Shown: in pieces, positions 18,547-58,357 of the stretch
Numbering within the stretch: the stretch's first letter is position 1
Layout of the letters: the number at the start of each line of letters is the position of its first letter
Virus record (IMG/VR): IMGVR_UViG_3300042874_000443
Span: 62,001 to 126,000 of that record
Length of the DNA: 64,000 bases
Source: a virus
Direction: 5' to 3' (one strand)
Translations under genes and position numbers: made by a program
The notes under the pieces: generated by a model
The model's input: the letters and a program-made list of their open reading frames with translations, nothing else
The model's database searches: none
Told to the model about the DNA's origin: nothing

Positions 18547-18903
18547 ATGACGCAAGCACACGCGAACCAGAAGCCCACCAACCTCGGCGCGCAAGCGGCC
18601 GCTGCTGCAACCACGGGCGGCACCGCCAAGCCGTCGGACGCCAAGACCGATGCCAAGACCGACGCCAAGCCGGCACCGACGCCGCGCAAGAAGGCTGCGG
18701 ACATGACGCCGGCGGAGAAGGAAGCAGCCAAGGCAGAGCGTCTGGCGAAGGCCAAGAAGGTCTTCATCGTCGTGGGCACGGTCCACGAGTTCGACTCGGT
18801 CAACAAGGCCGAGAAGTTCCTCAACGCCGCGGACTCCCCTGCGGAGTACACCGCGATCCGCGGCCTCCGAATCGGCACCAGCAAGAAGGTCTCCCTGCGC
18901 TAG
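18547..18903 (+). CDS. Lys/Ala-rich hypothetical protein, 118 aa
   Basis: ATG 18547 follows a GAGAGG site. Residues 1-60 are low-complexity Ala/Lys/Thr/Pro with a doubled DAKTDAKTDAK run. Residues 70-118 look folded (KVFIVVGTVHEF, then a helix and short strands). This resembles a small globular domain on a disordered basic arm, suited to nucleic-acid contact. The family is not recognised. Confidence 0.7.
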   Translation: MTQAHANQKPTNLGAQAAAAATTGGTAKPSDAKTDAKTDAKPAPTPRKKAADMTPAEKEAAKAERLAKAKKVFIVVGTVHEFDSVNKAEKFLNAADSPAEYTAIRGLRIGTSKKVSLR

Positions 18904-27847: not shown

Positions 27848-30803
27848 GAAGAAGGAGAGGGTCAAGCTGCCGGTCATTCCGGCCGACGACCCGTCGCTGC
27901 ATCCAGACAACCAATCGCCGCGAAAGACCGGCATGGCGTGTATGGGCTGCGATCTGTTCGACAAGGGCCGTGTCGTTGGACAAGGCGCCTCAGGTCACGT
28001 CGACATCATGTTCGTGTCGGAGTCGCCATCGTCCTGGTCGGTCAACAACCAGGAGATGTTCTTCGGACGCGGCGGCCGCATCATCCGCAAGGTCTGGAAG
28101 GAGCTGAAGGACCTGGATGCAAAGACGGGTGGGCATCTCAAGATGCGCTACCTGTCGAAGTGGGATTCGTACGCGGTCCAGTGTCAGGTTGAAGAGGGCC
28201 GTGACCAGAACGCGACGGCGACGGCTGCAACGATTCAGCGTTGCTCGCACTACCTCCGTTCGTCCATCAGGAACAAGCAGCCCAAGATCATCGTGGCGTT
28301 CGGCGCGACGGCGCTCAAGTCCCTCGGGCACAAGGTCAGCGGGTTTATGGAAGCGCGCGGACGCCTGCTCGACGTCGACATCGACGGTCAGACCTTCAAG
28401 GTCCTGCCGACGTTCTCGACGAAGCACTTGGTGGCGAAGACAGGTCTCTACAACCTGTTCTACGCGGACTTCGTGCGTGCGGTGCGTGTGGCGGGGGGTG
28501 TTGACGAGATCGGCGCGAACGCGACGCTTGAAGAAGTCACCAAGGACTACCGCATCCCGACGACCGTCGCGGAAGTCAAAGACGTCTGCGACACGATCAT
28601 CAACCACGTCGTCGAAGGCGCCAAGACTGCGTCGCAATGTGCGATCGCGGTGGACACCGAGACCAACACCGTCAACCCGCACAGGAAGGACGCGAAGGTC
28701 CTGTGCATCTCGTTCGCCTGGGACACGGGACGTTCGACCGCGATTCCGTTGTTCCATCGGGAAACGCCGTGGTCGCCCGAAGAGATGGAAGAGGTCATCG
28801 GCCACGTACAGCGCGTGCTCGAGTGCCCGAAGCCGAAGGTCTTCCACAACGCGAAGTTCGATCTCAAGTTCATCGAGTTGCGCCACGGCTGGCGCGTCAA
28901 CAACGTCGCGTGGGACTCGCTGCTCGGCGAGCACCTTCTGCGCGAAGACATGACGGGTTCGTACGGCCTGAAGACGTTGGGCCGGAGCTACTTCCCCATG
29001 TTCGGCAACTACGCCGACAAGGTGCAGGAGATCGCGCAACAGCTCACGCCCGAAGAAGAAGGCGTGCGGACCGTGCTCATCAAGGCACGCAAGGGCAAGC
29101 CGAAGAAGGGCGTCGAGGGCATCGAAGACGGCTTGACCTTCGAGATGACCAAGAAGGAGCTGGAGGCGTACCTCTTCGGCACGAAGAAGGACCGCAAGAA
29201 GAAGGTGTTCGACGAGGGCTACGAACGCGTGCCCATCGACACGCTCTGCATCTACGCGGCTGTCGACACCGACCTGACGCGCCGTTTGTTGCGGCATCAG
29301 TTCGGGCGCATGCAACAGGAAGGCTTCCAACAACATGCGCGTGCCTTGATGGCGTCGCACTGCGTCCCGGCGTCGCGAGCGCTCGGGAAGATGGAGTTCG
29401 ACGGCTTCCCGGTCGATCGACCGTATCTCGAGAAGCTTGAAGTCGACCTGGGCAAGATCGTCGACGAGAAGAAGAAGATCCTGAACAGCATGTGGGAGGG
29501 GTCGCACGAGTTCAACCCCAACTCGACTAACGACATCGCGTGGATCCTGTTCAACAACGGTGTGCTCAACCCGGTGACGGGCGAGCGCTCGCTGCGCAAC
29601 GGGCCGTGGGTCGAGGTCAACAAGAAATCGCAGAAGTACAAGACCGACAAGAAGACGCTCAAGGCCATCGCAGAGAAGTTGAAGTGCCCCTTCGCGAAGG
29701 CGCTGCTCGAGTATCGCGGCGCTCACAAGGCTCTCACGGGGTTCGTTCACGACATCAAGGTGTTGTCGGAATACGACAACATCCTGCACTCGAGCTTCCA
29801 CCTGCACGGCACATCGACGGGGCGCCTGTCTTCGTCGAACGTCAACATGCAGAACCAGCCCAAGAAGCTGGCCGGCGTGAACATCAAGAAGATCTTCATC
29901 CCGGATGACCCCGAGGAAGAGCTGATCTTCAACGTCGACTGGAAGGGTGCTGAGATTCGCGTCTTCACCGCGTACGCCCCCGACAAGCAGCTGATCGATG
30001 CACTCAACGGGGGACTCGACGTTCACAGCTGGTTCACGCAGGAGATCTTCGGAATCCCGTACGAGGAGGTCGAAGCGAAGAAGGACATCGACGACGAGAT
30101 GTCCAAGACACGTACAACCGTGAAGCGTGTCGTGTTCGGCATCCTCTACGGCGCCATGGCCAAGAAGATCGCAGAGACCGCTGGCATCTCGGAAGAAGCG
30201 GCGCAGCAGGTCATCGACAAGCTGTTCGATCGCTTCCCGTCCCTGAAGAACTACATGGACGAGGTGGTCGCGCAGATCCACACGCGTGGCTTCGTCGAGA
30301 CGTTGTTCGGTCGTCGCCGCCGGTTCCCGCTGCAGGCGGTCAACGGGTTCTTCCGCGGCCAGGCGGAACGTCGCGGCAAGAACATGAAGATCCAGTCGAC
30401 GTCGTCGGACATCGTCGTGGCGCAGCTCATCGAGATCTTCGATCACATCGGCGAGCTGGGCGGGCGTCTGTGCATTACGGTGCACGACTCGATCGTGGGC
30501 ACGGTCAAGAAGAAGTATCTGTCTCAGGTGCAGCCGTTCTTCGACCACTACTGCGTGGAGCGCGTCGGCCAGAAGTTCCCGTGGCTGCCCGTGGCGTTCG
30601 CGCACGATGTGAGCGTCGGTCCGAACTACGGTGAGACCATCGCGCTGGCGGACTACATCAAGAAGAACCCGATCAAGGAGCTGACGCCCGACCAGGAGTT
30701 CTTCCAGGAGCTGGACGAGGAGTCCTTGAACGAGCTGCGCGATGATGAAGAAGAAGCACGCGAGCGCGAAGCCCTTGCTGCCGTAGCAACGGGTACCTCG
30801 TGA
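27840..30803 (+). CDS. DNA polymerase I-type with N-terminal UDG domain
   Basis: GTG 27840 is favoured (AAGG six bases upstream); ATG 27807 would add 11 residues. The N-terminal about 210 residues resemble a family 4 uracil-DNA glycosylase: CMGC, VSESPSS, two more cysteines (CQVEE, RCSHYL) that would complete a 4Fe-4S set, and IIVAFGATALKSLG. The 3'-5' exonuclease has VDTET, FHNAKFDLKF and AAVDTD. The family A polymerase has motif A DWKGAEIRV, motif B KRVVFGILYGA and motif C VHDSIVG, in which the usual Glu after HD is Ser. A thumb region precedes motif A. The C-terminus is acidic. It is the likely replicative polymerase. Confidence 0.93.
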   Translation: MVEKKERVKLPVIPADDPSLHPDNQSPRKTGMACMGCDLFDKGRVVGQGASGHVDIMFVSESPSSWSVNNQEMFFGRGGRIIRKVWKELKDLDAKTGGHLKMRYLSKWDSYAVQCQVEEGRDQNATATAATIQRCSHYLRSSIRNKQPKIIVAFGATALKSLGHKVSGFMEARGRLLDVDIDGQTFKVLPTFSTKHLVAKTGLYNLFYADFVRAVRVAGGVDEIGANATLEEVTKDYRIPTTVAEVKDVCDTIINHVVEGAKTASQCAIAVDTETNTVNPHRKDAKVLCISFAWDTGRSTAIPLFHRETPWSPEEMEEVIGHVQRVLECPKPKVFHNAKFDLKFIELRHGWRVNNVAWDSLLGEHLLREDMTGSYGLKTLGRSYFPMFGNYADKVQEIAQQLTPEEEGVRTVLIKARKGKPKKGVEGIEDGLTFEMTKKELEAYLFGTKKDRKKKVFDEGYERVPIDTLCIYAAVDTDLTRRLLRHQFGRMQQEGFQQHARALMASHCVPASRALGKMEFDGFPVDRPYLEKLEVDLGKIVDEKKKILNSMWEGSHEFNPNSTNDIAWILFNNGVLNPVTGERSLRNGPWVEVNKKSQKYKTDKKTLKAIAEKLKCPFAKALLEYRGAHKALTGFVHDIKVLSEYDNILHSSFHLHGTSTGRLSSSNVNMQNQPKKLAGVNIKKIFIPDDPEEELIFNVDWKGAEIRVFTAYAPDKQLIDALNGGLDVHSWFTQEIFGIPYEEVEAKKDIDDEMSKTRTTVKRVVFGILYGAMAKKIAETAGISEEAAQQVIDKLFDRFPSLKNYMDEVVAQIHTRGFVETLFGRRRRFPLQAVNGFFRGQAERRGKNMKIQSTSSDIVVAQLIEIFDHIGELGGRLCITVHDSIVGTVKKKYLSQVQPFFDHYCVERVGQKFPWLPVAFAHDVSVGPNYGETIALADYIKKNPIKELTPDQEFFQELDEESLNELRDDEEEAREREALAAVATGTS

Positions 30804-31012
30804 ACAAGATACGCGGACGTTGTCACGGTCCTGATCGCCTGGTGCATCTCTTTCACCCTACGTACGGAGAGTGGGAAGATGCGCTCGGCGGAGACTACGC
30901 GTTCGTCACAGGCTGTGGGCGTGGGTTCAACGAAGACGACGAAGAAACGTACCAACCTACCGACGATCTCGTCACCTGTTTACGGTGTATCGGTTCACCG
31001 TTTACTGAATAA
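30800..31012 (+). CDS. Small Cys/His protein, 70 aa
   Basis: GTG 30800 overlaps the polymerase stop (GTGA). The product holds RGRCHGPD, an HLFHP segment, TGCGRGF and CLRC, so it may bind one zinc ion. It is too short for a confident family. It is coupled to the polymerase gene. Confidence 0.65.
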   Translation: MNKIRGRCHGPDRLVHLFHPTYGEWEDALGGDYAFVTGCGRGFNEDDEETYQPTDDLVTCLRCIGSPFTE

Positions 31013-31066
31013 ACCTGTTAGAAATCCAAGAGACCCTTTGTTATAAGCTACAGCTGAGGACCATCA

Positions 31067-36209: not shown

Positions 36210-36218
36210 AATTATAGG
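36210..36218 (-). promoter_or_regulatory. Candidate late promoter CCTATAATT
   Basis: The minus strand reads CCTATAATT, ending six bases before the ATG at 36204. Transcription from it would begin at or next to the start codon, so the mRNA would be leaderless. Identical cores occur at 8613, 40525 and 47671. No -35 box is evident. Confidence 0.5.
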
Positions 36219-40524: not shown

Positions 40525-40534
40525 AATTATAGGG
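40525..40534 (-). promoter_or_regulatory. Candidate late promoter CCCTATAATT
   Basis: The minus strand reads CCCTATAATT between divergent genes. It lies about 60 bases upstream of the TTG start at 40466, so here a real 5' leader with a ribosome site is expected. No -35 element is apparent. Confidence 0.5.
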
Positions 40535-41122: not shown

Positions 41123-44100
41123 GTGCAATCTGCCGACGCCCCGTTCAACTTTCCCGTCGTACAACCCGTCACTGTTCGCAAGCGTGACGGACGCACCACG
41201 CAGCCCTTCGACGTCGGAAAGATCGAGAGCGCCGTACGCAAGGCATGGGTCGAGGCAGAAGGCTCCGTCGACGAGGAGGCGCTCCACTGTGTAGCAACGT
41301 TCGTTTCTGCGACGCTTCATTCGGACGTCACCGACGTCGAGCAGATCCAAGACGTCGTCGAAGTCGCGCTCATGCGCGCGAACCAGTTCAAGGTCGCCAA
41401 GGCGTACATCATCTATCGCCAGAAGCGGACCGAGGCGCGCGCTGTCCGTCAGCAACCGGATGCCTCGGCTGTCAGCGACTACATCCACGCCAGCAAGTAC
41501 GCACGCTACGTCCCCGAGATGCAGCGCCGCGAGGTCTACGAAGAGACCGTCGCACGCGAGGAAGGCATGCACCTGCGTCGCTTCGCACACATCCCGGAGC
41601 TACTTCCTCTCATCACACGTGCGCACGATCTGGTGCGTGAGAAGAAGGTTCTGCCGTCGATGCGTTCGATGCAGTTCGGCGGTACGGCCATCGAAGCCAA
41701 CCACAACCGCATCTACAATTGCTCGGCGACACTGATCGACCGCCCTCGTGCGTTCGCCGAAGCGATGTTCCTGCTCCTGTCAGGCTGCGGTGTCGGATAC
41801 TCCGTGCAGATCGAGCACGTCGAGAAGCTGCCCGCGCTCGTCGACGTCGATGAGAAGAAGGTCGTCCACCACGTCATCGACGACACCATCGAAGGTTGGG
41901 CGAACGCGCTCGACGCGCTCATCAACAGCTACATCGGCGGCTACTACGTCGAGTTCGCGTTCAACAAGATCCGAGGGGCGGGTGCTCCGCTCAAGACGTC
42001 AGGTGGGCGTGCACCAGGTCACCAGAAGCTGAAGCTCGCGCTCGAACGTGTCCGCAAGGTCCTGCACAGCGCGCAAGGACGCCAGCTACGCCCCATCGAA
42101 TGCCACCGCATCCTGTGCCATGCGGCGGACGCGGTGCTCTCGGGGGGCATCCGTCGCAGCGCGATGATCTGCTTGTTCTCGATCGAGGACAGCGAGTTGA
42201 TGCACATCAAGGCGGATCGCGACTGGTACGACAAGGAGCCGTGGCTCGCCAACGCCAACAACTCCGTCGTGCTCAAGCGTGACGAGGTGAAGGAGAAGCA
42301 CTTCAAACGCATCTTCGGGATGACGAAGAACTTCGGCGAGCCCGGCGTCTTGTTTGTCAGCGACTACAATCACGTCACCAACCCCTGCGTGCCGCCCGGC
42401 ACGCGCATCCTCACGCGTGAGGGGTACGTCGCCATCGAGACCTGCGTTAACCGGCCGACCGTCGTTTGGAATGGTCTCGAGTGGCGTACCGTCACACCGC
42501 ACGTCACCGGACATGACCAACCCATCGTTCGTGTGCACCTGTCCGACGGGACGTCACTGGACTGCACCGACTACCACGAGTGGTGTGTGGCCGCGGGGAA
42601 GTGGTCTCGAGACCACACCGAGGAACGTGTGCGTGCGATCGATCTCGAAGAGGGCGACACCTTGATGCGTTACGACATGCCCCTCGTCGAAAACGGCGTT
42701 GACATGCCGTACGCTTATTCGCATGGGTTCTGGTGCGCTGACGGAACCGTCGAGGACGCTGGTCGCAAGACCGCAATGTGTTACGGCATCAAACGGGGCC
42801 TGATCGCACGTATGGAGCACGGCGGCGCGGTGGAACGGATCTCTGACGATACGGAGCGCGGACGCTCGCGTGTGGTCTTCACCTCGAACATGCCAGACAA
42901 GTTCGTCGTGCCCCACAATACGTCGATCCAATCGCGCCTCGACTGGGTCGCGGGGCTCTTGGACGGTGATGGTTCCGTAGTCAAGAATCCGAAAAGCGTC
43001 GGATTGCAGCTCTCTAGCGTGAACGTACCGTTCCTCCGCGAGGTTCGTTTACTGCTCACCACGCTCGGCGTACAGGCGAAGATCGCCGAGATGCATGAAG
43101 GCGGGATGCGCCTCCTCCCAGACGGCCGAGGCGGCAAGGCCGAGTACCTTACACAACCGAGCTTCCGTCTTCTCATCAACGCGACCGACACACACCGTTT
43201 GGTGCGTGCAGGTCTGCGTACAAGCCGCCTCGACCTCTCGGCGGCTGAAACTCTGCCACAACGGGATGCCCGCCGCTTCGTTACTGTTACGGCCGTCGAA
43301 CGCCTGGCGCCTGCGCCTGTTGTCTATTGCTTCACGGAAGAGAGTAACCACACCGGGACGTTCGAAGGCATTGTGACGGGGCAGTGCGCGGAGATCGGTC
43401 TCGACCCGCTTCTCGTCCACGAGGACGGCACCACGTCGACGGGCTGGGCGATGTGCAACCTCTGCGAGATCAACGCTGCGAAGCTCACCTCGTTCGAGGA
43501 TTTTTCGGAGGCGGCATGGGCGGCGACGCTCATCGGTACGATGCAGGCCACGTACACGGACATGCCGTACCTCGGCAAGGTCACCGAAGCGATCGTCCGT
43601 CGTGATGCTCTTCTCGGTATCGGCATGACAGGCATGCAGGACGCTCCGCACATCGCGTGTCACCCCGACTACCAACGCGTCGTCGCGGGCAAGGTCGTCG
43701 ACTGGAACCGCGAGTACGCGGCGCTTCTTGGCATCAACCAGGCTGCGCGCACCACCTGCGTAAAGCCGTCAGGCACGACGTCACTCGAGCTGGGCAACGT
43801 CGGCTCTGGCATTCACCCGCACCACGCCCGTCGCTACATCCGCCGTGTCACCGCCGACGAGCTGGAGGTCGTGTTCCAGGCGTTCAAGACGGCGAACCCG
43901 CACATGTGCGTGAAGAAGCCGGACGGCAAGTGGGTCATCGAGTTCCCTGTCGAGGCGCCCGAAGGTGCGGTCCTCAAGGAGGACCTGACTGCCGAGCAGT
44001 TCATGGAGATGGTGCGTTCGACCCAGCAGAACTGGGTAGTGCCCGGCGCGACCCGTCCCAGCCATGCGCCCGGCCTCTCTCACAACGTGTCGAACACGAT

Positions 44101-44377
44101 CACGGTCCGTTCAACGGAATGGGCCGAGGTTGCCGACTACCTCTGGAAGCACCGCGACAACTTCACAGGCGTTTCGCTTCTTTCGGACACTGGAGACATG
44201 GTCTACGCGTTCGCGCCGTTCGAAGCGGTCAAGACGGAAGCGCAGGAGCGTCGCTGGAACGAGTTGATCGTGGGCTACACGCCCATCGATTACCTCTCGG
44301 TCTTCGAGGCCGAAGACGGCACGAACCTGACGGGCGAAGCAGCATGCGCCAACGGCGCGTGCGAGTGGCGCCCGTAA
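41123..44377 (+). CDS. nrdJ: Class II ribonucleotide reductase with intein
   Basis: GTG 41123 follows AGGAG by eight bases. The host protein is about 751 residues after removal of a 333-residue intein. It has an N-terminal ATP-cone-like domain (about 17-103), SGCGVGYSVQ and EKLP typical of cobalamin-dependent reductases, and the radical-site NPCAEIGL, which is split by the intein. The C-terminus, GEAACANGACEW, carries the CxxxxC pair that accepts electrons. Size and motifs fit monomeric adenosylcobalamin-dependent enzymes (RTPR type). It supplies deoxynucleotides for phage replication. A separate small subunit is not expected for this class. Confidence 0.9.
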   Translation: MQSADAPFNFPVVQPVTVRKRDGRTTQPFDVGKIESAVRKAWVEAEGSVDEEALHCVATFVSATLHSDVTDVEQIQDVVEVALMRANQFKVAKAYIIYRQKRTEARAVRQQPDASAVSDYIHASKYARYVPEMQRREVYEETVAREEGMHLRRFAHIPELLPLITRAHDLVREKKVLPSMRSMQFGGTAIEANHNRIYNCSATLIDRPRAFAEAMFLLLSGCGVGYSVQIEHVEKLPALVDVDEKKVVHHVIDDTIEGWANALDALINSYIGGYYVEFAFNKIRGAGAPLKTSGGRAPGHQKLKLALERVRKVLHSAQGRQLRPIECHRILCHAADAVLSGGIRRSAMICLFSIEDSELMHIKADRDWYDKEPWLANANNSVVLKRDEVKEKHFKRIFGMTKNFGEPGVLFVSDYNHVTNPCVPPGTRILTREGYVAIETCVNRPTVVWNGLEWRTVTPHVTGHDQPIVRVHLSDGTSLDCTDYHEWCVAAGKWSRDHTEERVRAIDLEEGDTLMRYDMPLVENGVDMPYAYSHGFWCADGTVEDAGRKTAMCYGIKRGLIARMEHGGAVERISDDTERGRSRVVFTSNMPDKFVVPHNTSIQSRLDWVAGLLDGDGSVVKNPKSVGLQLSSVNVPFLREVRLLLTTLGVQAKIAEMHEGGMRLLPDGRGGKAEYLTQPSFRLLINATDTHRLVRAGLRTSRLDLSAAETLPQRDARRFVTVTAVERLAPAPVVYCFTEESNHTGTFEGIVTGQCAEIGLDPLLVHEDGTTSTGWAMCNLCEINAAKLTSFEDFSEAAWAATLIGTMQATYTDMPYLGKVTEAIVRRDALLGIGMTGMQDAPHIACHPDYQRVVAGKVVDWNREYAALLGINQAARTTCVKPSGTTSLELGNVGSGIHPHHARRYIRRVTADELEVVFQAFKTANPHMCVKKPDGKWVIEFPVEAPEGAVLKEDLTAEQFMEMVRSTQQNWVVPGATRPSHAPGLSHNVSNTITVRSTEWAEVADYLWKHRDNFTGVSLLSDTGDMVYAFAPFEAVKTEAQERRWNELIVGYTPIDYLSVFEAEDGTNLTGEAACANGACEWRP
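42386..43384 (+). mobile_element. Intein with LAGLIDADG endonuclease
   Basis: A 333-residue intein lies in the active-site motif NP|C of the reductase. It starts CVPPGTRILT (block A) and ends with FEGIVTGQ just before the extein Cys of CAEIGL. The two LAGLIDADG helices appear as SHGFWCADGTV and WVAGLLDGDGSV, and DCTDYHEW is a splicing block B with His. The last residue is Gln, not Asn, and the penultimate is Gly, not His; such variants are known but uncommon. Splicing is needed to restore the catalytic Cys context. Confidence 0.9.
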
Positions 44378-44401
44378 CTGTTGGTGTGATAAACATACGG
44401 G

Positions 44402-47670: not shown

Positions 47671-47680
47671 AATTATAGGG
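47671..47680 (-). promoter_or_regulatory. Candidate late promoter CCCTATAATT
   Basis: The minus strand reads CCCTATAATT in the 20-base gap between the 794-residue gene's stop (TAA at 47683-47681) and the ATG at 47660. It would give a near-leaderless mRNA. The same core occurs at 8613, 36210 and 40525. Confidence 0.5.
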
Positions 47681-50065
47681 TTATGGGTGGGCGTACACGA
47701 TGAGCGCGCGTTCCACCAGTCCGAGGTCGCGCGGAGCAGTCAGCGGCGTTGTAACACCGTCCCAACCTGCGGCGGAAGGATCGAATGCGCCCGTGATGAG
47801 CGCGGGATCGACACCGTTCACGAGCAACGGCATGTCGCCGGCGCCGATGGGCGCGTCCACCAGGTTGCCGATGTTGAGTTGGGTGTACGTAACGTTGACG
47901 GTGGTGAGCGTCCAAGCAGACAGGCGTGTGATCGTCCGGTTCGCATAGTCGACGGTGTAGTCGACGTTCTCGACGAGCGAAACGCCAGCAACGTCTCCGT
48001 CCAATCGAACAAGCACGAGGCGTCCAACACGCGGCAAGATAGGCGCGTTTGCGAGGAGCACTGGAACAAACGGGACTGCGAATATGGTCAACGCGGTGAA
48101 CGTCTCGTACTTGAAGTAGTCCCCTGCGTTCCAGATACCGCCACCAACGACAGGTGTGCTGTCTGTGAAGAGGACCTTGTCAGGACCGTAGACACGTGAC
48201 CCAACCAAACGATGGAACAGAATGTCTGCTTCATCGATTTCGACTTCGTCCAGGAACTCGGTGGTAGGCGTCGTAAAGACGTACGTATGTGAAGGCTTGG
48301 CGGACAGGACCAGTTCATTGAGGTCCTTCAATGACTGGGCGAAGTCGGATCCCAGCGATGCGGACAAAGCTGTAGCGCTGAACTTCACCGAGAACGTGTG
48401 GTACTTGAGGTACCGATCCATCAACACGAACGCCATACGGTGGCGATAGATCCGCGTGGGTAGTGGCGAGAGCACGATACCTGTCTCATCAGCCCCTACG
48501 TAGAGCCCCGGGTCGCCGACTTGCGGGTCATCCGCGGCCGCAATGACGTTCTCGATGTAGAACGGACTGGCGAGACGCCGGAACACCGGCGGGACGACAC
48601 CGTTCACCGGCGTGAAGAGTTGCTCGGGGATCGTCGCGCCGTACCACCAGCTCGGCGACTCGACGTAGTCGGTCACCGTCACCGCGACGGTGAGTGGCTC
48701 GAACGACAGGAGCGAAAGCCCTGGCACGAGGTCGGGACGGAATGGCGTTCCCTTGGGATAGGAGTACGTCACGGTCTGTCCGGATGACGGACGTGTCGTC
48801 AAGACGCGATCGACGATCGAATCTGACAAGTCGATGCCTTGGAAGATCTCGCCGTCATCCCGCACGACCGGCAGGTTCAGAACCACGTTGAGGGCACTCT
48901 CGATCCGCTCGAGAACCGGGCCGAGGATGTAGAGCTGGAAGATGCCTTGGAGGAACGCACGGTACACCTCCGTGCTATTTTCCTGTCGCCCGATGAGCGC
49001 GCCGAAGTTGTTCGCGAGTGTGCGGCGGTCCACGAACGTGTCTGGCGTCCACGCAGCGATCTGCAGAACCCGTGTGGTCGTTGTCGACGAGATGATCTTT
49101 CCCGTGATCGACTTCCGCGGCGAGACGCCCGCGGACGGGTAGATCTCCCTTTTCCAGGTGTAGTTGATGCCGTACGGGCCTGGCAAGTTCTGCCATGCCG
49201 TGAGTTGGTAGATGATGCCGTGCTCGTAGTTGACCCGGTAGTCGATGCCCTCGACGACATCCGCGCCAAGCGGATTCTTGGCGAAGACGCGTACCGACCC
49301 CTGGTCGATGCGTGTGTGTGCGAGCGTGGCCTCCGACAAGACGAGCGTGAAGGACTCCGCGATGACCTCTGCGTCGAACGGAACGCGTAGAACGACAAAA
49401 ATGATCCCGGTCTCTGGTGCTGAGAGCGCTGAATCAGGAGACGTGAACAACGCAGGGTCACGCACCACGTTGATGATGTGGTCTTCTCGGCGACGTTGCG
49501 TTCCGTCTGTTCCGACGTCAAGGATTCGCAGCGTGTCGCCCTTCTTGACGTCGGTAAAGGAGGTCCACAGCGGAATCAGTGTATCCGCAAAACTACCTCC
49601 GACAGAAACATCGATGGAACGACGTGCGTAACCATCCAACGGGATGCCATCACCTGCAACGTTGGTGGGGTCCACCTTGAAGTAGACAACCCGTTCCGAG
49701 AGGTTGTAATCGCGGTGCTCTTCCAGTGAAGCAGTGGGCTCGACCACGCGATTGTCGATCGATACGAACGTGACTACAGGGTCAGGCAGTGCGAAGGACC
49801 AGCGGTTGTCAGCGACGACGTCACCCTCGACAAAAGCAACCTCATCTTCGCGAATCGCGAGCATGTGGTAGTACTCACGGTCGAGCGCGACGGCGTCCTT
49901 GAGTGCGACGCCGAGCACTGTGGACATATAGTCCAGGTACGCTTGTCCGATAAGGATGGCCGAGCCTTGGTAGAGCGCGTAGAGCTGGTCTGCGTCTGCA
50001 AAGAAACGCTGCCAGAAGTCCGAGAGCCCCTGGAGAAGGTTGAACGGATAGCCAATCGTAGGCAT
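47681..50065 (-). CDS. Large baseplate protein, 794 aa
   Basis: ATG 50065 overlaps the baseplate J-like gene's stop (TAATG). The N-terminal region (FNLLQGLSDFWQRFFADAD) is helical; the rest is strongly beta-rich with repeated VDYxVxYxxxxIxRL-type motifs (GIDYRVNYEHGIIYQLTAW and NVDYTVDYANRTITRLSAW). These two similar stretches are about 430 residues apart and look like repeated domains. Its place directly downstream of the J-like gene suggests a baseplate wedge or arm protein. No specific family is recognised. Confidence 0.8.
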   Translation of the reverse strand: MPTIGYPFNLLQGLSDFWQRFFADADQLYALYQGSAILIGQAYLDYMSTVLGVALKDAVALDREYYHMLAIREDEVAFVEGDVVADNRWSFALPDPVVTFVSIDNRVVEPTASLEEHRDYNLSERVVYFKVDPTNVAGDGIPLDGYARRSIDVSVGGSFADTLIPLWTSFTDVKKGDTLRILDVGTDGTQRRREDHIINVVRDPALFTSPDSALSAPETGIIFVVLRVPFDAEVIAESFTLVLSEATLAHTRIDQGSVRVFAKNPLGADVVEGIDYRVNYEHGIIYQLTAWQNLPGPYGINYTWKREIYPSAGVSPRKSITGKIISSTTTTRVLQIAAWTPDTFVDRRTLANNFGALIGRQENSTEVYRAFLQGIFQLYILGPVLERIESALNVVLNLPVVRDDGEIFQGIDLSDSIVDRVLTTRPSSGQTVTYSYPKGTPFRPDLVPGLSLLSFEPLTVAVTVTDYVESPSWWYGATIPEQLFTPVNGVVPPVFRRLASPFYIENVIAAADDPQVGDPGLYVGADETGIVLSPLPTRIYRHRMAFVLMDRYLKYHTFSVKFSATALSASLGSDFAQSLKDLNELVLSAKPSHTYVFTTPTTEFLDEVEIDEADILFHRLVGSRVYGPDKVLFTDSTPVVGGGIWNAGDYFKYETFTALTIFAVPFVPVLLANAPILPRVGRLVLVRLDGDVAGVSLVENVDYTVDYANRTITRLSAWTLTTVNVTYTQLNIGNLVDAPIGAGDMPLLVNGVDPALITGAFDPSAAGWDGVTTPLTAPRDLGLVERALIVYAHP

Positions 50066-52059
50066 TAGGTACCTTCAGCCTGTACAACAATGTCGATGGC
50101 GTTGGCAACGTAACGAAGCGTCCGCGGCGTCACGCCGAGCCCGTCCAGTTGGAGCGCGGGGCCGTCGATCTGTTTGGAAGGCTCGACGTTGACCACGTCG
50201 ACCGTCTGGTACGACATCACATCGCCCGTCGGGGCACGCAGCGCGTAGAAGATCGTCAAGATGGGCTGCCCTGATGCCAGCGGTACGATGTTGGCGATCG
50301 TGGGGTAGGTGTTCTTGACCAACTGAATGATCGAGGACACGTCGATCGAGGCTGCGGAGGCGTCGAACGCGTTGATGTAGTCGGCAACCGTTTGCGCGAC
50401 GGCGAAGTTGTCGAGCACGGTCGTCGCCGTCGACGACAGGACGTACGTGATCGTCATACTGACGACGACCGGATGATGTCCTCGCGGCAGCTGATAGGCT
50501 GCGCTGACGCGTTCACGACGGTCGCGCACGAAGCTGTCGATCGAGGCGAACGATGCCAACGTACGATATCGCACGCGCAACTGGTATCCGTCGAAGCGCG
50601 CCTGATTGGTATCCGTTCCGACGATCACGTCCATCCACTGGGCCGCGCTCTGCGCGTACAACGGACTGTGGACGACCGTCTGGAACTGCAGGCCTTGTGT
50701 TGGCGTCTGTGCTTCGGACGGTGTCGTATTGACCTGGTTGGGGAAGTGCACAAACCCGTCGAGCGTCGACTTGAAGGCGCTCTCGGCAGGCGCGGGATTC
50801 AGGATGGCCACGTCGAGAATGTCCATGACGGGGCCGCCGGGAAGCGTGATGCGCCCCGACGTCGCCGTGCTGCGCGACGTGAGTCCTGTGGTCAACGGAA
50901 CACCTCCGATGTCCGCGAGCACGTCGTTGTACGTCGGTCCGATACGTCCGATGACGTAGTTGACCGTCGTGATAGGGGACGCTTCGTCGGTTGCGACAGG
51001 GAAGGGCGCCCGTTCGCTTATGATGAGCTGCAAGCCGTCATTCTCGATCACGAGGAATTCGGCGGGCGTAACTGGAAGCCCCGCAGTGACGCGAATGATG
51101 TCACCCGGAAGTACCGCGGCAAAGCTCACGGAGCCATCGCGAAAGATCGTCGCAACACCGTCCGGACGCGCGAAGAGCGTGTTCACTGCACCCGTGAACG
51201 ACGTCTCGACCAGCCCCGTTCGAAGGTAGATGTCGACAGCACCGCCGACATGGAACTTCAGGTTGGGCGCGATCGTCGGGACGATGTCACGCTGCATCTC
51301 GAGGTCACCCATCCCGATGACCAAGATGCTTTCGATTCCATCGAACGTATCGTTGAGCGTCGCCTCGATCGAACGGCTGTTGATGAGGTTGCGTACCGAG
51401 ATCGCCGTGGGCGCGCGTGCGAGAATCGCGTCGACCGTTTCGGGGCCCGCTCCGCCAGAAAAGGTGATCGTGCTCTCGATGTGCGAGATGTACGGATTGA
51501 ACCGATCGAATGATGCGAAGAGGCCCGGCGCGATGTTGTAGGTTTCACCGGTCGCGATGGCCACCAGCGGAATCTGGAACTCGTAGTCGACGATGGACCC
51601 GTCGGCCTCCACGATCGGCACCAGCTCTGTCTTGGGGATGAACAACGTGTCCGAGCTATCCACCACGAAGATCAGCCCCTGGCTGTACGTGAACTGGATC
51701 GTGATCGGAATGAAGACGTCCACCTGTTGCGACGCGTGACCGATCGCGAAACCGCGTGCGTATCCGCCGCCCTTGGGCGTCACGAAGAAGTTCGACAGGA
51801 TCGCAGTGACAGCGTCTTGAAGCGCCGTCGTGTCTCCGCGCGTCGCGGCCTGCACACTGATGAGCGACTGCATCTGGCGGATCTGTGCCGCGTCTGCTTT
51901 CAAGAAGGCGAACACCGCGGCAAGTGCTTGCACGGTGAGGTCGCGTAACGCCGTACCCTTGCTGAAATCGCCGTCCGGGACTTGGTCGGTGAGGTACTGC
52001 TCGAGGAAATCGGCCGCGGACGCGACATCTGTCTGGTTGATCGTGATGGCGACGGTCAT
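50065..52059 (-). CDS. Baseplate J-like protein
   Basis: ATG 52059 overlaps the stop of the gp25-like gene (ATGA). The 664-residue protein begins with TVAITINQTDVASAADFLE, then GDFSKGTALRDLTVQALAA, which fits the N-terminus of J-like (gp47/gp6) baseplate wedge proteins. Long beta-rich regions follow (IGHASQQVDVFIPITIQF). The C-terminal part (TISLPRGHHPVVVSMTITYVL-like stretch, then AVAQTVADYINAF) resembles the helical J-like end. It forms the baseplate wedge that holds the tail fibres and drives contraction. Confidence 0.85.
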   Translation of the reverse strand: MTVAITINQTDVASAADFLEQYLTDQVPDGDFSKGTALRDLTVQALAAVFAFLKADAAQIRQMQSLISVQAATRGDTTALQDAVTAILSNFFVTPKGGGYARGFAIGHASQQVDVFIPITIQFTYSQGLIFVVDSSDTLFIPKTELVPIVEADGSIVDYEFQIPLVAIATGETYNIAPGLFASFDRFNPYISHIESTITFSGGAGPETVDAILARAPTAISVRNLINSRSIEATLNDTFDGIESILVIGMGDLEMQRDIVPTIAPNLKFHVGGAVDIYLRTGLVETSFTGAVNTLFARPDGVATIFRDGSVSFAAVLPGDIIRVTAGLPVTPAEFLVIENDGLQLIISERAPFPVATDEASPITTVNYVIGRIGPTYNDVLADIGGVPLTTGLTSRSTATSGRITLPGGPVMDILDVAILNPAPAESAFKSTLDGFVHFPNQVNTTPSEAQTPTQGLQFQTVVHSPLYAQSAAQWMDVIVGTDTNQARFDGYQLRVRYRTLASFASIDSFVRDRRERVSAAYQLPRGHHPVVVSMTITYVLSSTATTVLDNFAVAQTVADYINAFDASAASIDVSSIIQLVKNTYPTIANIVPLASGQPILTIFYALRAPTGDVMSYQTVDVVNVEPSKQIDGPALQLDGLGVTPRTLRYVANAIDIVVQAEGT

Positions 52060-52502
52060 TGGCGTACCTCGAGCGTGGGAAGCACAATCTGAAGCTGTTG
52101 ACCGGACACGTTGGTGATGAAGATCTGCGCCGAGAACCCGGGTCCCGACGGAACCTCAATGTAGTCGGTCACCGACGCAGACGCGAGACGTTCATCGTCA
52201 GGGATCGCCGCCTTTCCTGACTGCCAACCTTGGATGGCGGTAACCGTCTTCCCGACGGCGATGTCGAGGACTTCACGCGCATCGTTGAGGACGATGTTCG
52301 TGCCGATCAAGTTCGTCAGGTTGGTGCCGTACGTAACGTCGGTCGGGTCTGTACCCACTGGGGTCAGCAGGTACTTCGCGAACATGTTCACCAGTTTCTG
52401 CAGGCCGCGTACGGCCAGTGACCGTGTTTGTCCGAACGAATAGAACCCCATCCCAGTGTACTGGGCGGCCGGCACGATCTGGATGTTCACGTCAAACGGC
52501 AT
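52056..52502 (-). CDS. Baseplate wedge protein, gp25-like
   Basis: ATG 52502 lies next to the stop of the M23 peptidase gene's downstream end (TAAATG). The 148-residue protein has RSLAVRGLQKLVNMFAKYLL and DAREVLDIAVGKTVTAIQ, with a beta-strand end (FSAQIFITNVSGQQLQIVL), matching the small GPW/gp25 wedge fold. It sits directly before the J-like gene, the usual order of contractile-tail baseplates. It joins the wedge to the sheath or hub. Confidence 0.8.
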   Translation of the reverse strand: MPFDVNIQIVPAAQYTGMGFYSFGQTRSLAVRGLQKLVNMFAKYLLTPVGTDPTDVTYGTNLTNLIGTNIVLNDAREVLDIAVGKTVTAIQGWQSGKAAIPDDERLASASVTDYIEVPSGPGFSAQIFITNVSGQQLQIVLPTLEVRQ

Positions 52503-53612
52503 TTACGTTACCTTTCCATCCGACCATGTGCCCACTGAGAAGTCGAACGTCATAGGGGTCGCGACTACAGGAGCTTGCCCTTTGAATGCGGAGGCTACTG
52601 TATAAAGGCTTGTGCGGTGGACATCTACGGTTTGCGCGACGTTGTTCGCGTGCTGTGCTTGTCCATTTTTGATGTCCGCAACGCCTTTGTTTTGAAGCGT
52701 ATTGGCGCGGTTCAACCCATTCAGCGCGTTGGCCACCGCCCCTGACGCTCGCTGTAACCCTACAGACTCGAGGATCGGCAAGATAATGTCTGCCGCTTGA
52801 CTCGAGTTCGTTGAGTCTCGATGGTTCGGCCAGTAGTTCGGCACCATCGCGGTTGGACGAACAAGCACACGCAGACCGCCTGACGTAAACGCGACCTGGA
52901 GATGGAGATGTGTGCCCTTGTGGAACCAGTTGTAATAACCACCCGTGCCGCCCACCTCGCCGATCTCATCTCCTTCTTGCACTTTCTGACCGTACGCAAC
53001 AAATGTACGGTTCATATGAAAGTACTCAGTCTGGTACCCCTGAAAATCACCATCATGACGAATAGTCACGAACATGCCGCCGAACCCGATGTTGTTGGCG
53101 ACCTTCGACGCGACTTCCTCGCCTTTGGCGTTGTACATGATCTCCTTGGCGTCATCTCCGTAGATGCCAGGGACCTGAACGCCGCCACTCTTGGACTGGA
53201 AGCCAACGAAACGAACAGTGCCGCTGGCCATCGCAAACAGTTTCTCGCCGCGTGGCGCCGTGAAATCGAGCCCCAGATGCCGCGCAGCAGAATTGACCTG
53301 TTTGTTATACCCCGTTGACCGAGGGTCTCCCCAACCACTCGCAACGACGCGTTCACGGTTGGGCCCCTTCGCATAGGTGCCACTCATCGCAAGTGGAGAC
53401 CCAAACAGTCGCTTGAGCGGCACTGGAACTGTTTCGAAGAACCGTTTCTTGGTGACGGGGTCGTATTCAGGTGCAGGTATCGTCTGGTTCGCGTCGGACG
53501 TGACCTTTGCGCGCTGAGACGCCGCAGCGCGTGCCGCGCGTGCGCCTAGTTCATCGAAGGGCTGTTCAGCAGGGCGGACTGGGTCGCGATCCGAGGGATC
53601 GTCATTTGCCAT
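52503..53612 (-). CDS. M23 family metallopeptidase, tail-associated
   Basis: This 369-residue protein starts at ATG 53612 and overlaps the sigma gene's end by 11 bases. The LytM/M23 zinc site is HLGLD (H112, D116) and HLHLQ (H235, H237), in a GxxVRFVGF and GDEIGEVGGTGGYYNW context. A disordered N-terminal arm precedes the domain. A helical C-terminal segment follows. It should cut peptidoglycan cross-links at entry. Base composition is less GC-rich than its neighbours, which hints at transfer. Confidence 0.9.
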   Translation of the reverse strand: MANDDPSDRDPVRPAEQPFDELGARAARAAASQRAKVTSDANQTIPAPEYDPVTKKRFFETVPVPLKRLFGSPLAMSGTYAKGPNRERVVASGWGDPRSTGYNKQVNSAARHLGLDFTAPRGEKLFAMASGTVRFVGFQSKSGGVQVPGIYGDDAKEIMYNAKGEEVASKVANNIGFGGMFVTIRHDGDFQGYQTEYFHMNRTFVAYGQKVQEGDEIGEVGGTGGYYNWFHKGTHLHLQVAFTSGGLRVLVRPTAMVPNYWPNHRDSTNSSQAADIILPILESVGLQRASGAVANALNGLNRANTLQNKGVADIKNGQAQHANNVAQTVDVHRTSLYTVASAFKGQAPVVATPMTFDFSVGTWSDGKVT

Positions 53613-54345
53613 GGACCTTCTCCACGTGCTCGATCAGCTTCGCCTTGGCGTAGCTGTACTGTCCCTGCGTCATGTTGAGCTTCTTCTGAATCTCGGTGTT
53701 CGAGAGTTGCGTGGCGCCGCCGTAGCCTGTCAGGTGTTCGAAGATCGCTTTCTGCTGGGGAGCCAATCCGTGGTGGATGAAGTCGACGACGTGGTCTTGC
53801 TTGTCGGCGTCGTAGAGCCCGGCATCGCCCGTTTCGAACAAGCCGCCTGACTCGAGCAGTTCCTTGCGCCCGATCGACTTGCGGTACTCCTCGACACGAT
53901 GAACCGGCCAACCGAGATGATCGGAAAGCTCGTCAGTTGTAGGCGCGCGTCCGTGCGCGTCCGCGAGGTCCGAGTGCGCCACGTTGTAGCTGTGGTAGAG
54001 CAGCATCTTGTTCTCGGGAAGCCGCGCGACGTTCTGGTTCGCGTAGCTCAAGCGAGACATGCGTTGCAGCTGGTTGACCACGTGCGTGCCGAGCGCTGCG
54101 CCCTTGTTCGGGTCGTAGCTGTGGAACGCTTCCATCGCGAGACGCTTGCCTTCCGTCTCGAGAAGCGGACGCGCGAGCGTCCCCGACCACTTGTTGACCT
54201 CGCGATGGATGAGCGGTGAGACCTGCCCCAGGAGCGCGCTCGCATGCGCGTCTGTGGGCTTGTCCTTCCACGTCTTCCACGCATCCATGTCGGACTGTTG
54301 CCGTCCGGTTGCTGCGAGCTTGGTGATGGCGGACAACGCGTTCAT
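53602..54345 (-). CDS. Sigma-70-like factor in the baseplate operon
   Basis: This 247-residue protein starts at ATG 54345 (ATGA overlap with the hub gene). Region 2-like sequence is AMEAFHSYDPNKGAALGTHVVNQLQ (about 70-95) and the following NVARLPENK. A region 3-like helix-turn-helix is DELSDHLGWPVHRVEEYRKS (138-157). Region 4-like sequence is LAPQQKAIFEHLTGYGG with IQKKLNMTQGQYSYAKAKLI (194-238). It lacks a clear region 1. Such reduced sigma factors usually drive late transcription or are packaged with a virion polymerase. It is odd to find it between a lytic hub and a peptidase gene. Confidence 0.8.
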   Translation of the reverse strand: MNALSAITKLAATGRQQSDMDAWKTWKDKPTDAHASALLGQVSPLIHREVNKWSGTLARPLLETEGKRLAMEAFHSYDPNKGAALGTHVVNQLQRMSRLSYANQNVARLPENKMLLYHSYNVAHSDLADAHGRAPTTDELSDHLGWPVHRVEEYRKSIGRKELLESGGLFETGDAGLYDADKQDHVVDFIHHGLAPQQKAIFEHLTGYGGATQLSNTEIQKKLNMTQGQYSYAKAKLIEHVEKVHGK

Positions 54346-57300
54346 GTGCGGGGTGCCAGTTTGGTTTGGACGTTGGTCTTGTAGGCGAGCAGTGCTTCAT
54401 CCCAGTTGGCGCGCGTCTGTGGAAAGTTGTCCGCAGTGAGACCCGGTGCCGTAAGACCTGCGAGCCCGTCGGCGCCTGTCGGTGGAAAGAAGTCGGCTGG
54501 CGGCGACGTGAACGAGCGGATGCGGTCGAAGTAACGTGCGCCGACGCTGCGCGCGTGGCCGAAGGCCGGGATCTGCCCTTCGCCCGCCGAGTTGTAGAAG
54601 ATGATGTATTCGTCGAGCGAGCAGATGGGGCGCCAGTTGTACCGCAACGCGGCGTCCCGGCTTTCGAACAATTGTGACGCCGCGGACGCCGGTACCAAGG
54701 TGCGTGTGTCGGTGAGGTTGTGCTCGACACGCGTGGTTCCGGTTGTACCGGCGTTGTTGGCCGTCCCTTGCACGATTTGGAGCGCTTGGTTGATGCGAAG
54801 GTCGAGTGATGTCAGCTGCGTCTTTAGAAATCCGATCTGAACGTTGAGACTCGCGATGTTGGCGGTCAGCTGTGCGCGTGCAGCGGTTTGAACGGTCGAG
54901 ACAAAGTCGTTGGGGTCCTCGCTCGTAGTATCGCTGGCAGCATCGAGTGGCTTGATCGCAGCGAGCGAACGTGTGGCGCCGAGCAGCTCGGACTGCCGGC
55001 TCATGAGGGTTGCGCTCGTCGTATTCCGCAACGGCGTCAGGTCCGCGATGGTCTTGGCCGCAGCGACGTTCGCGTCTTGCGATTCCACATCGGGACCGTC
55101 GACGAAGATGGGATCGGGTGCTCCGTTGGGAATAGGGGATTCGTACGCCAAGATCTTTCGGAAATCGAAAGCCGCGTCCTTACCGAAAAGCGGCTGGGCT
55201 CCGTAGAACAGCTTCTGGTAGTACTCCTCCGCCTGCAGGAAGGACTGTGTGATCTTGCTGATGTCGCGCACGGGTTCTTGGGGCGCCGTTCCGCGCGCTG
55301 TTGCATCGTTGCGCGAGAACTCGTCCGCCAGCAGTTCGAACATCTCTTGGAACTGACGTCCGTACATGTACGAAAGCGTCGTGCCGCGTTGACCGCTATG
55401 GTCCATTCGATGTTGGACCGTCGTGATGTAGACGACAAGGTCAACACGTGATGCGCGTTGGTCGAATAATACACCGGGGAACCCTGGAACTACGTACGGG
55501 TTCCAAACAACATTCGCTGACCCCGTACGCTTGGCGTAACGCTCACGGAAGTACTCGAACTTCGCATACAGGTGATAGACGTCTTCGTTGCCTGCCGTGA
55601 TCTCGTTGAGCTGCGTAGCTGTCGCGTTGGAAACGACGGGGGCCGGAGGTGCTGTCGGAGACGTTGATGCGTCGGGCGGCGTTGCAGGCGCAGTCGTCGC
55701 GGGTGGCGACGGTAGCGCGCTCTTGTCGCTTTGCGAAATCGTGATTCCCGTCGCGCCCGGAAGCACGGCGCCGGCTGCAGTCGCGTTGTTGAGCGCTTTT
55801 TTCTGGAGACCGTTCGCGGTCTTCAACGCTTCGAAGTAGAACTCTTCCCAGTCCCTGGGCGCGTGTCCCAACGACAACTTCACCTGCGGCAAGATCGAGG
55901 CGGCGTACGCAGGTAGGTTGTGTCCGCGAAACTTGGTCAGCCGCCACATATCTGCTTCGGACCACGAGATGCCGACCGACTTGGCGAGCGTGTCGGCGAT
56001 CCCGCGCTTCACCATGATGTACTCGAGCCCGCATGTGATCGAGGTCGTGTCTGCTTGTACGAACGTCGGTTTGTCGACGATCAATGCGGGGTCCACGCCA
56101 TTGGGAAAACTCTTCGTACGGAGCTTCGCGCACTCCTCGGGCAAAAGTTGGAAGTAGCCCTTGGCGTGGTCTCCGTCAGTCGAATACCGCCGGCCGCCCG
56201 TTTCAATGTTGACCCAGGCGAGTGCGAACTCCGCCGGAACGCGTGTTCCACGTGCCGCGGTTGTGACTCGGTCACGAAGTTGTTCAGTGCCTGGCCAGTA
56301 GACGCGTGTGCCGTTCGGACCGATGACGCCGTTCTCGCTCTGCGTGATCATCGGCCCATTGCCCGACGGTCCGGTGGTCGGACGGGGCGGTGTTGGCGGT
56401 GGAATCGCGCCTGTCTGTGTGGGCGCAGCCACAGGAGCGGCTACGGAGTTGTCCGACGTGCCGGTCGTGTTGTTCGGCGTCGCAGTCTGCGCGGTGCTCT
56501 TGCCCTTCAGCTCTGACTGCTTGAGGAAGAAGAGCCACGGTGGAACCTTGCGACGGTCCATCACTGGGCCCTTGAAGAACTCCTCGGGGTAGAGGAGGAA
56601 GTTCTTGCCGTTGAACTTCGGATGGTCTTTGTCGCGCTCCTTGCTGCGCAGGTCTGCTGCCGGTGGATACGCGACGGCGAGCGCGTTCATGATCGTCTCA
56701 TTGAGTCCGCCCTTGGGGATCTTGAGCGTCGTCGTCAACGTCTCGTCGTTGAAGTACATCCGCGTCGGCTGCGTGACGTAGTTCTCGTCGTAGGCGATGT
56801 TGAGCACCTGCGAAGGGAACATGACGTTGCACGACGGCGGGATGCTGAAGAGCATCTGCGGCTTGGGGAAGTAGTTCCCCATGCGCTTGGGCTTCAACTT
56901 CCGCTCGGCCGTCCCTTGCGAGGTGACCCAAGAACCGAACGAGTCCACCAAACGGTGTTCGCGGAAGTCCGTCGACTGTACCAACCCGCTCGCGAGATCA
57001 ACGGTGACCAACGGCATGCCAGGGATCATCGCGACCTCCATGAGCATGGTTTGGTAGACCATCTGGATCATGTCCCAGATCGAGCCTGCGTTCTGTAGGT
57101 TCGGGATCAGGTCCTTGATGATGACGTCGACCGCCGTGACGTTTTGCGTCGCCTGCAGCACAGGGAAGACGTTCGAGTTTTCGACCTCGTCGAAGAACGG
57201 CGACGCGATGAAGCGGTTCTGGAAGTTGGTGATGCGGGCCCAGCGTGTGAAGAAGTTCGCCGCTGGCACCGTGCGGATGTTCGTCGGGATGACCGCGTCC

Positions 57301-57866
57301 ATCATTCCGCGCACGGTGTTGTAGAGAAAGTCGAAGGGCCGCTTGATGTCTGCGCCCGCCTGTCCTTGCCCAGGCAGAAGTCCTTGTTTGAAGAGCGCGA
57401 AGGGGTAGACGAGATTGCTCGAGGCGTTGGGGATGGTGGTCGTGTCCGCAGGTCCCGACGCGTGCCCGACCATGTCGTCGAGCGTCGTCATGAACTGCAC
57501 GAAAAGTTGTGTGAAGAGCGCGATCTGGTTGACGACCGTGAAGATGATCGAACGTCCACCTGACGTATTGCGATACCCCCATCCCGTGATCTCGCCTTCG
57601 CCGAAGAGGCGGAACGCAGGTGCTACGCTCGGGTCGACGTCGCAGTCGTCGTAGTAGAACACCGCGACTTGAACACGGTCCTGCGAACCCAAACGCACGA
57701 GCACAGGGTCCGCCGCCATCTCAATCTGCATCTCCGGGATCTGCCAGACGCCATAGCGGAGCGAGGCGGACTTCGCGGGGACCTCGAGCCCGTTGATGTA
57801 GACGATGAACGTGGCCTGATGGGGCGCGCTCGATCCGAACACCGCGTTGGACGCAGGTGCGGTCAC
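54342..57866 (-). CDS. Baseplate hub with transglycosylase-like domain, 1174 aa
   Basis: GTG 57866 overlaps the upstream stop (GTGA), which decides this start over an upstream ATG. The N-terminal about 480 residues are a hub-like beta-rich region (GLEVPAKSASLRYGVWQIPEM, QIALFTQLFVQFM). A Pro/Thr linker follows. About residues 535-640 hold FALAWVNIETGG and GDHAKGYFQLLPEE, an SLT-type pattern with Glu in NIETGG as the likely catalytic residue. The C-terminal half is beta-rich and helical. This is probably the central spike/hub that cuts glycan strands during injection, alongside the M23 peptidase. Confidence 0.8.
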   Translation of the reverse strand: MTAPASNAVFGSSAPHQATFIVYINGLEVPAKSASLRYGVWQIPEMQIEMAADPVLVRLGSQDRVQVAVFYYDDCDVDPSVAPAFRLFGEGEITGWGYRNTSGGRSIIFTVVNQIALFTQLFVQFMTTLDDMVGHASGPADTTTIPNASSNLVYPFALFKQGLLPGQGQAGADIKRPFDFLYNTVRGMMDAVIPTNIRTVPAANFFTRWARITNFQNRFIASPFFDEVENSNVFPVLQATQNVTAVDVIIKDLIPNLQNAGSIWDMIQMVYQTMLMEVAMIPGMPLVTVDLASGLVQSTDFREHRLVDSFGSWVTSQGTAERKLKPKRMGNYFPKPQMLFSIPPSCNVMFPSQVLNIAYDENYVTQPTRMYFNDETLTTTLKIPKGGLNETIMNALAVAYPPAADLRSKERDKDHPKFNGKNFLLYPEEFFKGPVMDRRKVPPWLFFLKQSELKGKSTAQTATPNNTTGTSDNSVAAPVAAPTQTGAIPPPTPPRPTTGPSGNGPMITQSENGVIGPNGTRVYWPGTEQLRDRVTTAARGTRVPAEFALAWVNIETGGRRYSTDGDHAKGYFQLLPEECAKLRTKSFPNGVDPALIVDKPTFVQADTTSITCGLEYIMVKRGIADTLAKSVGISWSEADMWRLTKFRGHNLPAYAASILPQVKLSLGHAPRDWEEFYFEALKTANGLQKKALNNATAAGAVLPGATGITISQSDKSALPSPPATTAPATPPDASTSPTAPPAPVVSNATATQLNEITAGNEDVYHLYAKFEYFRERYAKRTGSANVVWNPYVVPGFPGVLFDQRASRVDLVVYITTVQHRMDHSGQRGTTLSYMYGRQFQEMFELLADEFSRNDATARGTAPQEPVRDISKITQSFLQAEEYYQKLFYGAQPLFGKDAAFDFRKILAYESPIPNGAPDPIFVDGPDVESQDANVAAAKTIADLTPLRNTTSATLMSRQSELLGATRSLAAIKPLDAASDTTSEDPNDFVSTVQTAARAQLTANIASLNVQIGFLKTQLTSLDLRINQALQIVQGTANNAGTTGTTRVEHNLTDTRTLVPASAASQLFESRDAALRYNWRPICSLDEYIIFYNSAGEGQIPAFGHARSVGARYFDRIRSFTSPPADFFPPTGADGLAGLTAPGLTADNFPQTRANWDEALLAYKTNVQTKLAPRT

Positions 57867-58357
57867 TGCACGGCCTTTGCAAGACAGAGCGCGGCAGCAA
57901 GCGTGCACGTACGGTAACGCGGGTACTGCGCGATGGCGTAGAACCGCAGGAAATTGACGTAGGGCTCGGGAATGGTCTGGATCGTCGAAAGCGAATCGAG
58001 CGCGGGTTTGATGAGGTAGCGGTTCAGGCGCATGTCTCCATCGATCTCGAGGAATCGCCGACGCTCACACACGTTCGACTCCAAGACGCCCGGCGGCAAG
58101 TCGATGAGCTTGTACAAGATCGCGCCGATCTCCGTTTCGAACGCCATCTGCAACGCGACACGCGCGCCTCGTACCAAGTCATGCGTCGTCGTGAGAGAGA
58201 ACAGAAAGCGCTGCCGCAACTGCTCGAGTGCGTACGTCGCCATCGGTTGCTGCAACGCCGCTTCGAAGGGCGTGGATATCCCTATCCAACAACCATCTGC
58301 GTCTTCGGTCGGCGGCGGGCCCCCGAAGAAGAACGGGAATGTGAATGGGTAAAGCAT
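57863..58357 (-). CDS. Tail/baseplate protein, 164 aa
   Basis: ATG 58357 sits 10 bases from the upstream gene. The N-terminus is aromatic and Pro-rich (YPFTFPFFFGGPPP). The rest is helical and charged (VALQMAFETEIGAILYKLID). Its end overlaps the hub gene's start. It may be a tail-hub adaptor; the family is not recognised. Confidence 0.7.
   Translation of the reverse strand: MLYPFTFPFFFGGPPPTEDADGCWIGISTPFEAALQQPMATYALEQLRQRFLFSLTTTHDLVRGARVALQMAFETEIGAILYKLIDLPPGVLESNVCERRRFLEIDGDMRLNRYLIKPALDSLSTIQTIPEPYVNFLRFYAIAQYPRYRTCTLAAALCLAKAVQ

Follow-up and report, generated by a model that had tools for sequence, protein, structure and literature searches.

The protein P0001, encoded within a baseplate operon, is by sequence a confirmed relative of the sigma-70 factors, with a similarity far beyond chance, and we consider it probable (roughly 0.6) that it is a virion sigma factor that travels in the particle with the phage polymerase to initiate transcription after infection, with a second sigma factor, P0003, serving another promoter class. 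In the proposed mechanism, P0001 would be the sigma-70-family specificity factor for the single multisubunit RNA polymerase (RNAP) of the phage, which comprises a beta-beta'N fusion and a beta'C subunit; produced from the baseplate operon, it would be packed in the virion with the phage RNAP and delivered along with the DNA, the holoenzyme would initiate at phage-specific promoters without host sigma, and P0003 would then steer the same RNAP core to another promoter class. The observations reported here comprise (i) the sigma homology and fold of P0001, (ii) the phage RNAP, (iii) the second sigma factor, (iv) the position of the P0001 gene, (v) the co-occurrence of sigma and RNAP, and (vi) two promoter-like motifs. 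The window, that is, the whole stretch of 64,000 bases analyzed, spans positions 62001-126000 of a virus record 157,408 bases long; the genome was analyzed stretch by stretch, and genes outside the window were called by a simple in-house caller.

P0001 and the baseplate operon

The operon runs on the minus strand and includes, from upstream to downstream, the following genes:

54342-57908, minus strand: large hub-like baseplate gene, directly upstream of P0001, with an ATGA overlap with the P0001 start
53602-54345, minus strand: P0001, putative virion-type sigma-70-family protein, 247 aa, ATG start (sequence, profile and fold); parts: sigma2 ~14-107, sigma3 ~108-158, linker/finger ~159-183, sigma4 ~184-247
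52503-53612, minus strand: M23 peptidase gene, directly downstream of P0001, with an 11-nt overlap (Pfam 6.7e-17)
52056-52502, minus strand: gp25-like baseplate wedge protein (phrog_43, 1.7e-4)
50065-52059, minus strand: baseplate J-like protein (Pfam Baseplate_J 0.012, a weak match; synteny conserved)
47681-50065, minus strand: 794-aa structural protein, end of the operon

The sequence-only reading had described P0001 as translationally coupled between a hub gene and an M23 peptidase gene, and the ATGA and 11-nt overlaps make such coupling reasonable. As to the neighbors it named, the M23 peptidase is borne out by its Pfam match, while the hub takes its name from position and from synteny with gp8 of Salmonella phage Arash, a 'cell wall hydrolase, structural protein', a Pfam search of the 54342-57908 product having returned no matches. 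The sigma gene keeps its place in this baseplate block, between hub and gp25/J genes, at all 24 loci examined, with a hub relative found upstream in 23 of them, even where identity has fallen to ~22%; the M23 gene occurs at the sigma locus only in the closer relatives of the window.

As a single sequence, P0001 matches Sigma70_r3 in Pfam at 2.1e-5 (25.0 bits, the curated gathering cut-off being 25.3) and phrog_351, 'RNA polymerase sigma factor', in PHROG at 2.1e-9. A family profile comprising P0001 and 22 IMG/VR relatives (23 members, conserved at the protein level from 88% down to 22% identity) matches SigA (8h3v) with an E value of 8e-18, residues 25-229 aligning to 155-378 collinearly over regions 2-4, and Pfam recovers Sigma70_r3 in 23/23 members, r2 in five and r4 in three. 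This profile upholds the earlier description of a sigma-70-like protein with regions 2, 3 and 4, and it weighs most in the assignment because chance can yield middling Z scores for helical folds.

The AlphaFold2 model of P0001 (pLDDT 78, pTM 0.45) displays a flexible linker at residues 160-182, and its large whole-chain rmsd is due to the free placement of the domains. Structural searches with this model, run as a check for a non-sigma helical fold, return sigma factors as the top rows in both Foldseek (best 1.3e-7) and VIA-align (Z 12.5 to SigB), and residues 14-105 superimpose on sigma domain 2 bound to -10 DNA (3ugo_A) with an rmsd of 2.3 Å over 92 residues.

Region 1.1 is absent from P0001, and the Trp-Trp dyad of region 2.3 is replaced by N91-Q92, with H88 in place of Tyr and T87-H88-V89 invariant in the family; the dyad that characterizes primary (group 1/2) sigma-70 factors is therefore missing from P0001, whereas P0003 has it intact. 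The region 2.3 Trp dyad reads the -10 element, so its replacement by Asn-Gln predicts that DNA recognition by P0001 differs from that of canonical sigma factors. The loss of the dyad, together with the invariable place of the gene between hub and baseplate genes, would also suit a baseplate protein that has taken over the sigma fold for structure or assembly and plays no part in transcription. We consider this highly improbable, since regions 2, 3 and 4 are all retained, in order, P0001 is linked to the presence of RNAP, and in Arash virions the spectral density of its orthologue Gp10 tracks that of the RNAP and not that of the hub, J-like or gp14 baseplate proteins.

RNA polymerase, second sigma factor and Arash virions

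The polymerase and the second sigma factor are encoded elsewhere in the window:

8614-12975, minus strand: RNA polymerase beta-beta'N fusion, 1453 aa (Rpb2_6 3.3e-46, Rpb1_2 9.5e-22; active-site NADYDGD)
5965-7746, minus strand: RNA polymerase beta' C-terminal subunit, 593 aa
20886-21677, minus strand: second sigma factor P0003, frame open to 21815, regions 2 and 4, Trp-Trp dyad intact

One polymerase set per record, made of two polypeptides, was found in the records examined, and the Arash RNAP is split alike into gp206 (1525 aa) and gp216 (606 aa). The clamp-helix region of bacterial beta' is the docking site of sigma2, and the corresponding region of the window fusion aligns with it; the tip has diverged, and R275, R293, E295 and R297 (E. 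coli numbering), which we take to be the usual sigma contacts, are changed. We infer that P0001 binds this core. P0003 matches Sigma70_r2 (4.5e-9) and r4 (3.8e-10), is SigA-like at 5.7e-22 and keeps the TYAGWW motif intact; judged from these matches, it is more canonical, or SigA-like, than P0001. A second sigma-type (region 2) domain occurs in 29/29 records tested, 26 of them over the cut-off, and Arash gp196 is the likely counterpart of P0003.

The RNAP is present in record G000 and in 22 of the 28 other sigma-bearing records; every sigma-bearing record of at least 120 kb (20 records) carries it, and the six records without it are fragments of 17-102 kb. In the reverse test, the sigma was recovered at E < 1e-59 in 12 of 14 records selected by their RNAP; the remaining two are pieces of 105 and 112 kb. 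This almost perfect linkage in both directions speaks against P0001 redirecting the host RNAP, as do T4 gp55, the SPO1 sigmas and the sigmas of RNAP-less jumbo phages, even though sigma homologues of large phages usually act on the host core (PMC7598289). Such a role is very unlikely in our estimate: it would leave the phage RNAP lacking an initiation factor when infection starts, and the family motif L-S/G-T-H-V-x-N has no relatives in 84,980 genomes of bacteria and archaea, as searched with a single pattern that detects close relatives only.

Among the RNAP-bearing phages YerA41, Carin-5, Va2, RHph_Y65 and Vibrio 1.031.O, a set without positive control, profile A1 gave no match to a P0001-type sigma, and the small genes beside their beta' genes display no sigma domain. 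The 'RNA pol sigma factor' of Cobetia phage Carin-5 (L037, 3089-3679, beside rpoC) was rejected as a candidate, having no Pfam or PHROG sigma match.

The RNAP fusion ORFs of records L025, L026 and L075-L078 reach 1812-1815 aa, with the beta match broken in two in two records, which suggests an intein or insert in beta, and in the Vibrio phages D148 and D181 (~144-149.6 kb) a stretch annotated as homing endonuclease interrupts the RNAP fusion gene. The RNAP open frames of L063 and L070 (2076-2097 aa) possibly encode a complete beta-beta' fusion in one polypeptide. On the plus strand of the window, a LAGLIDADG-type domain splits a ribonucleotide reductase gene (41123-44377) and is probably an intein, and the product of 27807-30803 joins a family A DNA polymerase to an exonuclease and, at the N terminus, to a uracil-DNA-glycosylase domain.

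Arash gp10, the orthologue of P0001, was found in purified virions together with both RNAP subunits, with 24 unique peptides and 467 spectra for Gp10, 3516 spectra for Gp206 and 1210 spectra for Gp216 (PMC10585845); its identity to P0001 is ~33%. Computed from the published table, the spectra per residue amount to 2.00 for Gp10, 2.31 for Gp206 and 2.00 for Gp216; the adjacent hub reaches 0.67, the J-like protein 0.98 and the capsid protein 4.34. The unique-peptide density of Gp10 (10.3 per 100 aa) is the highest among the proteins compared, metabolic carry-over proteins showing 0.2-1.4. These spectral densities, crude as they are, fit the packaging of a roughly stoichiometric holoenzyme.

The Arash authors offer carry-over as an alternative, and their virion preparations also contained ribonucleotide reductase, ligase and primase, though with few unique peptides each (PMC10585845). 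P0001 might then be an ordinary late sigma, made from the structural operon in which its gene sits and acting on the phage RNAP within the infection that produced it, in keeping with the middle and late sigmas that phages commonly have. We judge this unlikely, given that the unique-peptide density of Gp10 exceeds the carry-over values, that its spectral density equals that of the virion RNAP, and that Arash already has a second sigma, gp196, which is not listed in the published virion table (PMC10585845). The non-virion-type enzymes with many spectra in Arash show very few unique peptides. The earlier proposal that P0001 is packaged to serve the phage polymerase has thus gained the window RNAP, the two-way co-occurrence and the Arash spectral density; for the window phage itself, we infer both packaging and an early role.

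Promoter-like motifs

Two classes of promoter-like motif, P1 and P2, occur in the window:

47671-47679, minus strand: P1, CCTATAATT
40525-40533, minus strand: P1, CCTATAATT
36210-36218, minus strand: P1, CCTATAATT, 5 nt ahead of a start codon
5260-5268, minus strand: P1, CCTATCATT
31000-31016, plus strand: P2, GTTTACTGAATAAACCT
44380-44396, plus strand: P2, GTTGGTGTGATAAACAT, 5 nt ahead of a called start
18541-18557, minus strand: P2, GCTTGCGTCATAAACCT, no close gene downstream

All 12 genome copies of P1 (CCTATMATT) are intergenic, with 0.4 expected, and in the form CTATMATT the same is found in two relatives (12/12 and 14/14); the 12 genome copies of P2 (GnTTRYnnGATAAACAT) are likewise all intergenic, with 0.2 expected, an optimistic figure since these very sites had served to refine the pattern. 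P1 mostly precedes structural-looking gene blocks of the minus strand, with no strong conservation at the place of a -35 element. A P2 copy beyond the window, at genome 126802-126818, lies ahead of the sigma-containing operon, and a copy with one mismatch precedes the RNAP operon; because P2 precedes the sigma operon, it is not cleanly 'early'. About half of the P1 motifs and some P2 motifs end 4-5 nt ahead of a start codon, which would place the start codon at +1 and predicts leaderless phage mRNAs.

The presence of two motif classes and two sigma factors suggests a pairing. Our tentative guess is that P0003 would read P1, because P1 is TATAAT-like and fits a Trp-Trp sigma, which would leave P2 for P0001. 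Host-type sigma-70 promoters are not in excess in the other upstream regions of the window clade, a further point against action on the host RNAP, whereas the upstream regions of Arash show a small excess (5 vs 0.8 expected).

CTATMATT shows no intergenic enrichment in Arash and D69, where the motifs found are TTCAA...TGNTATAAG on the early strand and a TAAAATA-like motif on the structural strand. The Arash early strand and D69 display strong promoter-like TTCAA-N-TGGTATAAG and TGTTATAAGTAATATAG; promoters go unmentioned in the main text of the Arash paper, and these motifs appear unreported for that phage (PMC10585845). Against the reading of P0001 as a virion sigma we count the possible carry-over in Arash, the identity of only ~33% to gp10, the loss of the Trp dyad, the position of P2 before the sigma operon, and the host-type promoter excess in Arash.

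Comparison with known systems

Reviews from 2020 and 2026 describe RNAP-encoding jumbo phages without sigma homologues and sigma-bearing phages that use the host RNAP (PMC7598289, PMC13282480), and no paper describing one phage RNAP with two sigma-70 factors was found in the open-licence literature. The detection in Arash virions is already published (PMC10585845); the combination of one RNAP and two sigma factors departs from the account of the reviews. The 2025 'moraphages' were ruled out as a published account of the P0001 group, since they have a sigma and lack the RNAP.

We further put forward, tentatively and at somewhat less than even odds, that there is a widespread lineage of myophages, 120-200 kb in size, whose entire programme depends on a single bacterial-type RNAP carried in the virion and on two interchangeable sigma factors, of which one is packaged and the other is produced once infection has begun. 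The lineage has RNAP and sigmas together, and in one isolate, Arash, sigma and polymerase are in the particle. If the proposal is true, the lineage would have adopted 'one core, two sigmas' where phiKZ relies on two polymerases, and many phage promoters would give rise to leaderless mRNAs. Such a simple, testable viral holoenzyme, near the bacterial one, may help to place the origin of phage RNAP from or alongside bacterial RNAP, and the P0001/RNAP pair could be put to use as a compact orthogonal transcription system; with Arash and the Vibrio phages, tests are possible at once.

P0001 resembles the bacterial FliA/WhiG-like three-domain sigma-70 factors in the order and fold of regions 2-3-4 and in an acidic flexible linker at the place of the sigma finger, but differs from them in the absence of region 1.1, the Asn-Gln in place of Trp-Trp, the invariant T-H-V, a very divergent region 4 and a phage-only family. 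T4 gp55, SPO1 gp28/gp34 and the sigmas of RNAP-less jumbo phages are also phage-encoded sigma-type specificity factors; these act on the host polymerase and are not known to be packaged alongside an RNAP of the phage.

Arash shares with the window phage the P0001 family, the place of the gene after the hub gene and a split RNAP in the genome. Its gp10 is annotated only as 'RpoS' (PMC10585845), with the RNAP partnership, the second sigma and the group-wide arrangement unanalyzed there, and on its early strand the motif is TGGTATAAG, combined with a TTCAA-like -35, whereas the window clade displays CCTATMATT and GnTTRYnnGATAAACAT.

The phiKZ gp68 and AR9 gp226 proteins are, as P0001 would be, phage-encoded specificity subunits of a phage multisubunit RNAP. 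They belong to the non-virion RNAP, AR9 gp226 showing no sequence similarity to sigma factors and gp68 a structural similarity only (PMC13282480, PMC7598289), whereas P0001 is a sequence-recognizable sigma-70 accompanied by one RNAP only, a relative of which is found in virions. With the phiKZ-type virion RNAP, the window phage would share a multisubunit RNAP for first transcription, packaged in phiKZ and, as argued above from Arash, probably packaged here. The phiKZ types lack a sigma homologue and have two RNAP sets, each divided among four or five polypeptides, whereas the window phage comprises one RNAP set, the beta-beta'N fusion with beta'C, and two sigma factors.
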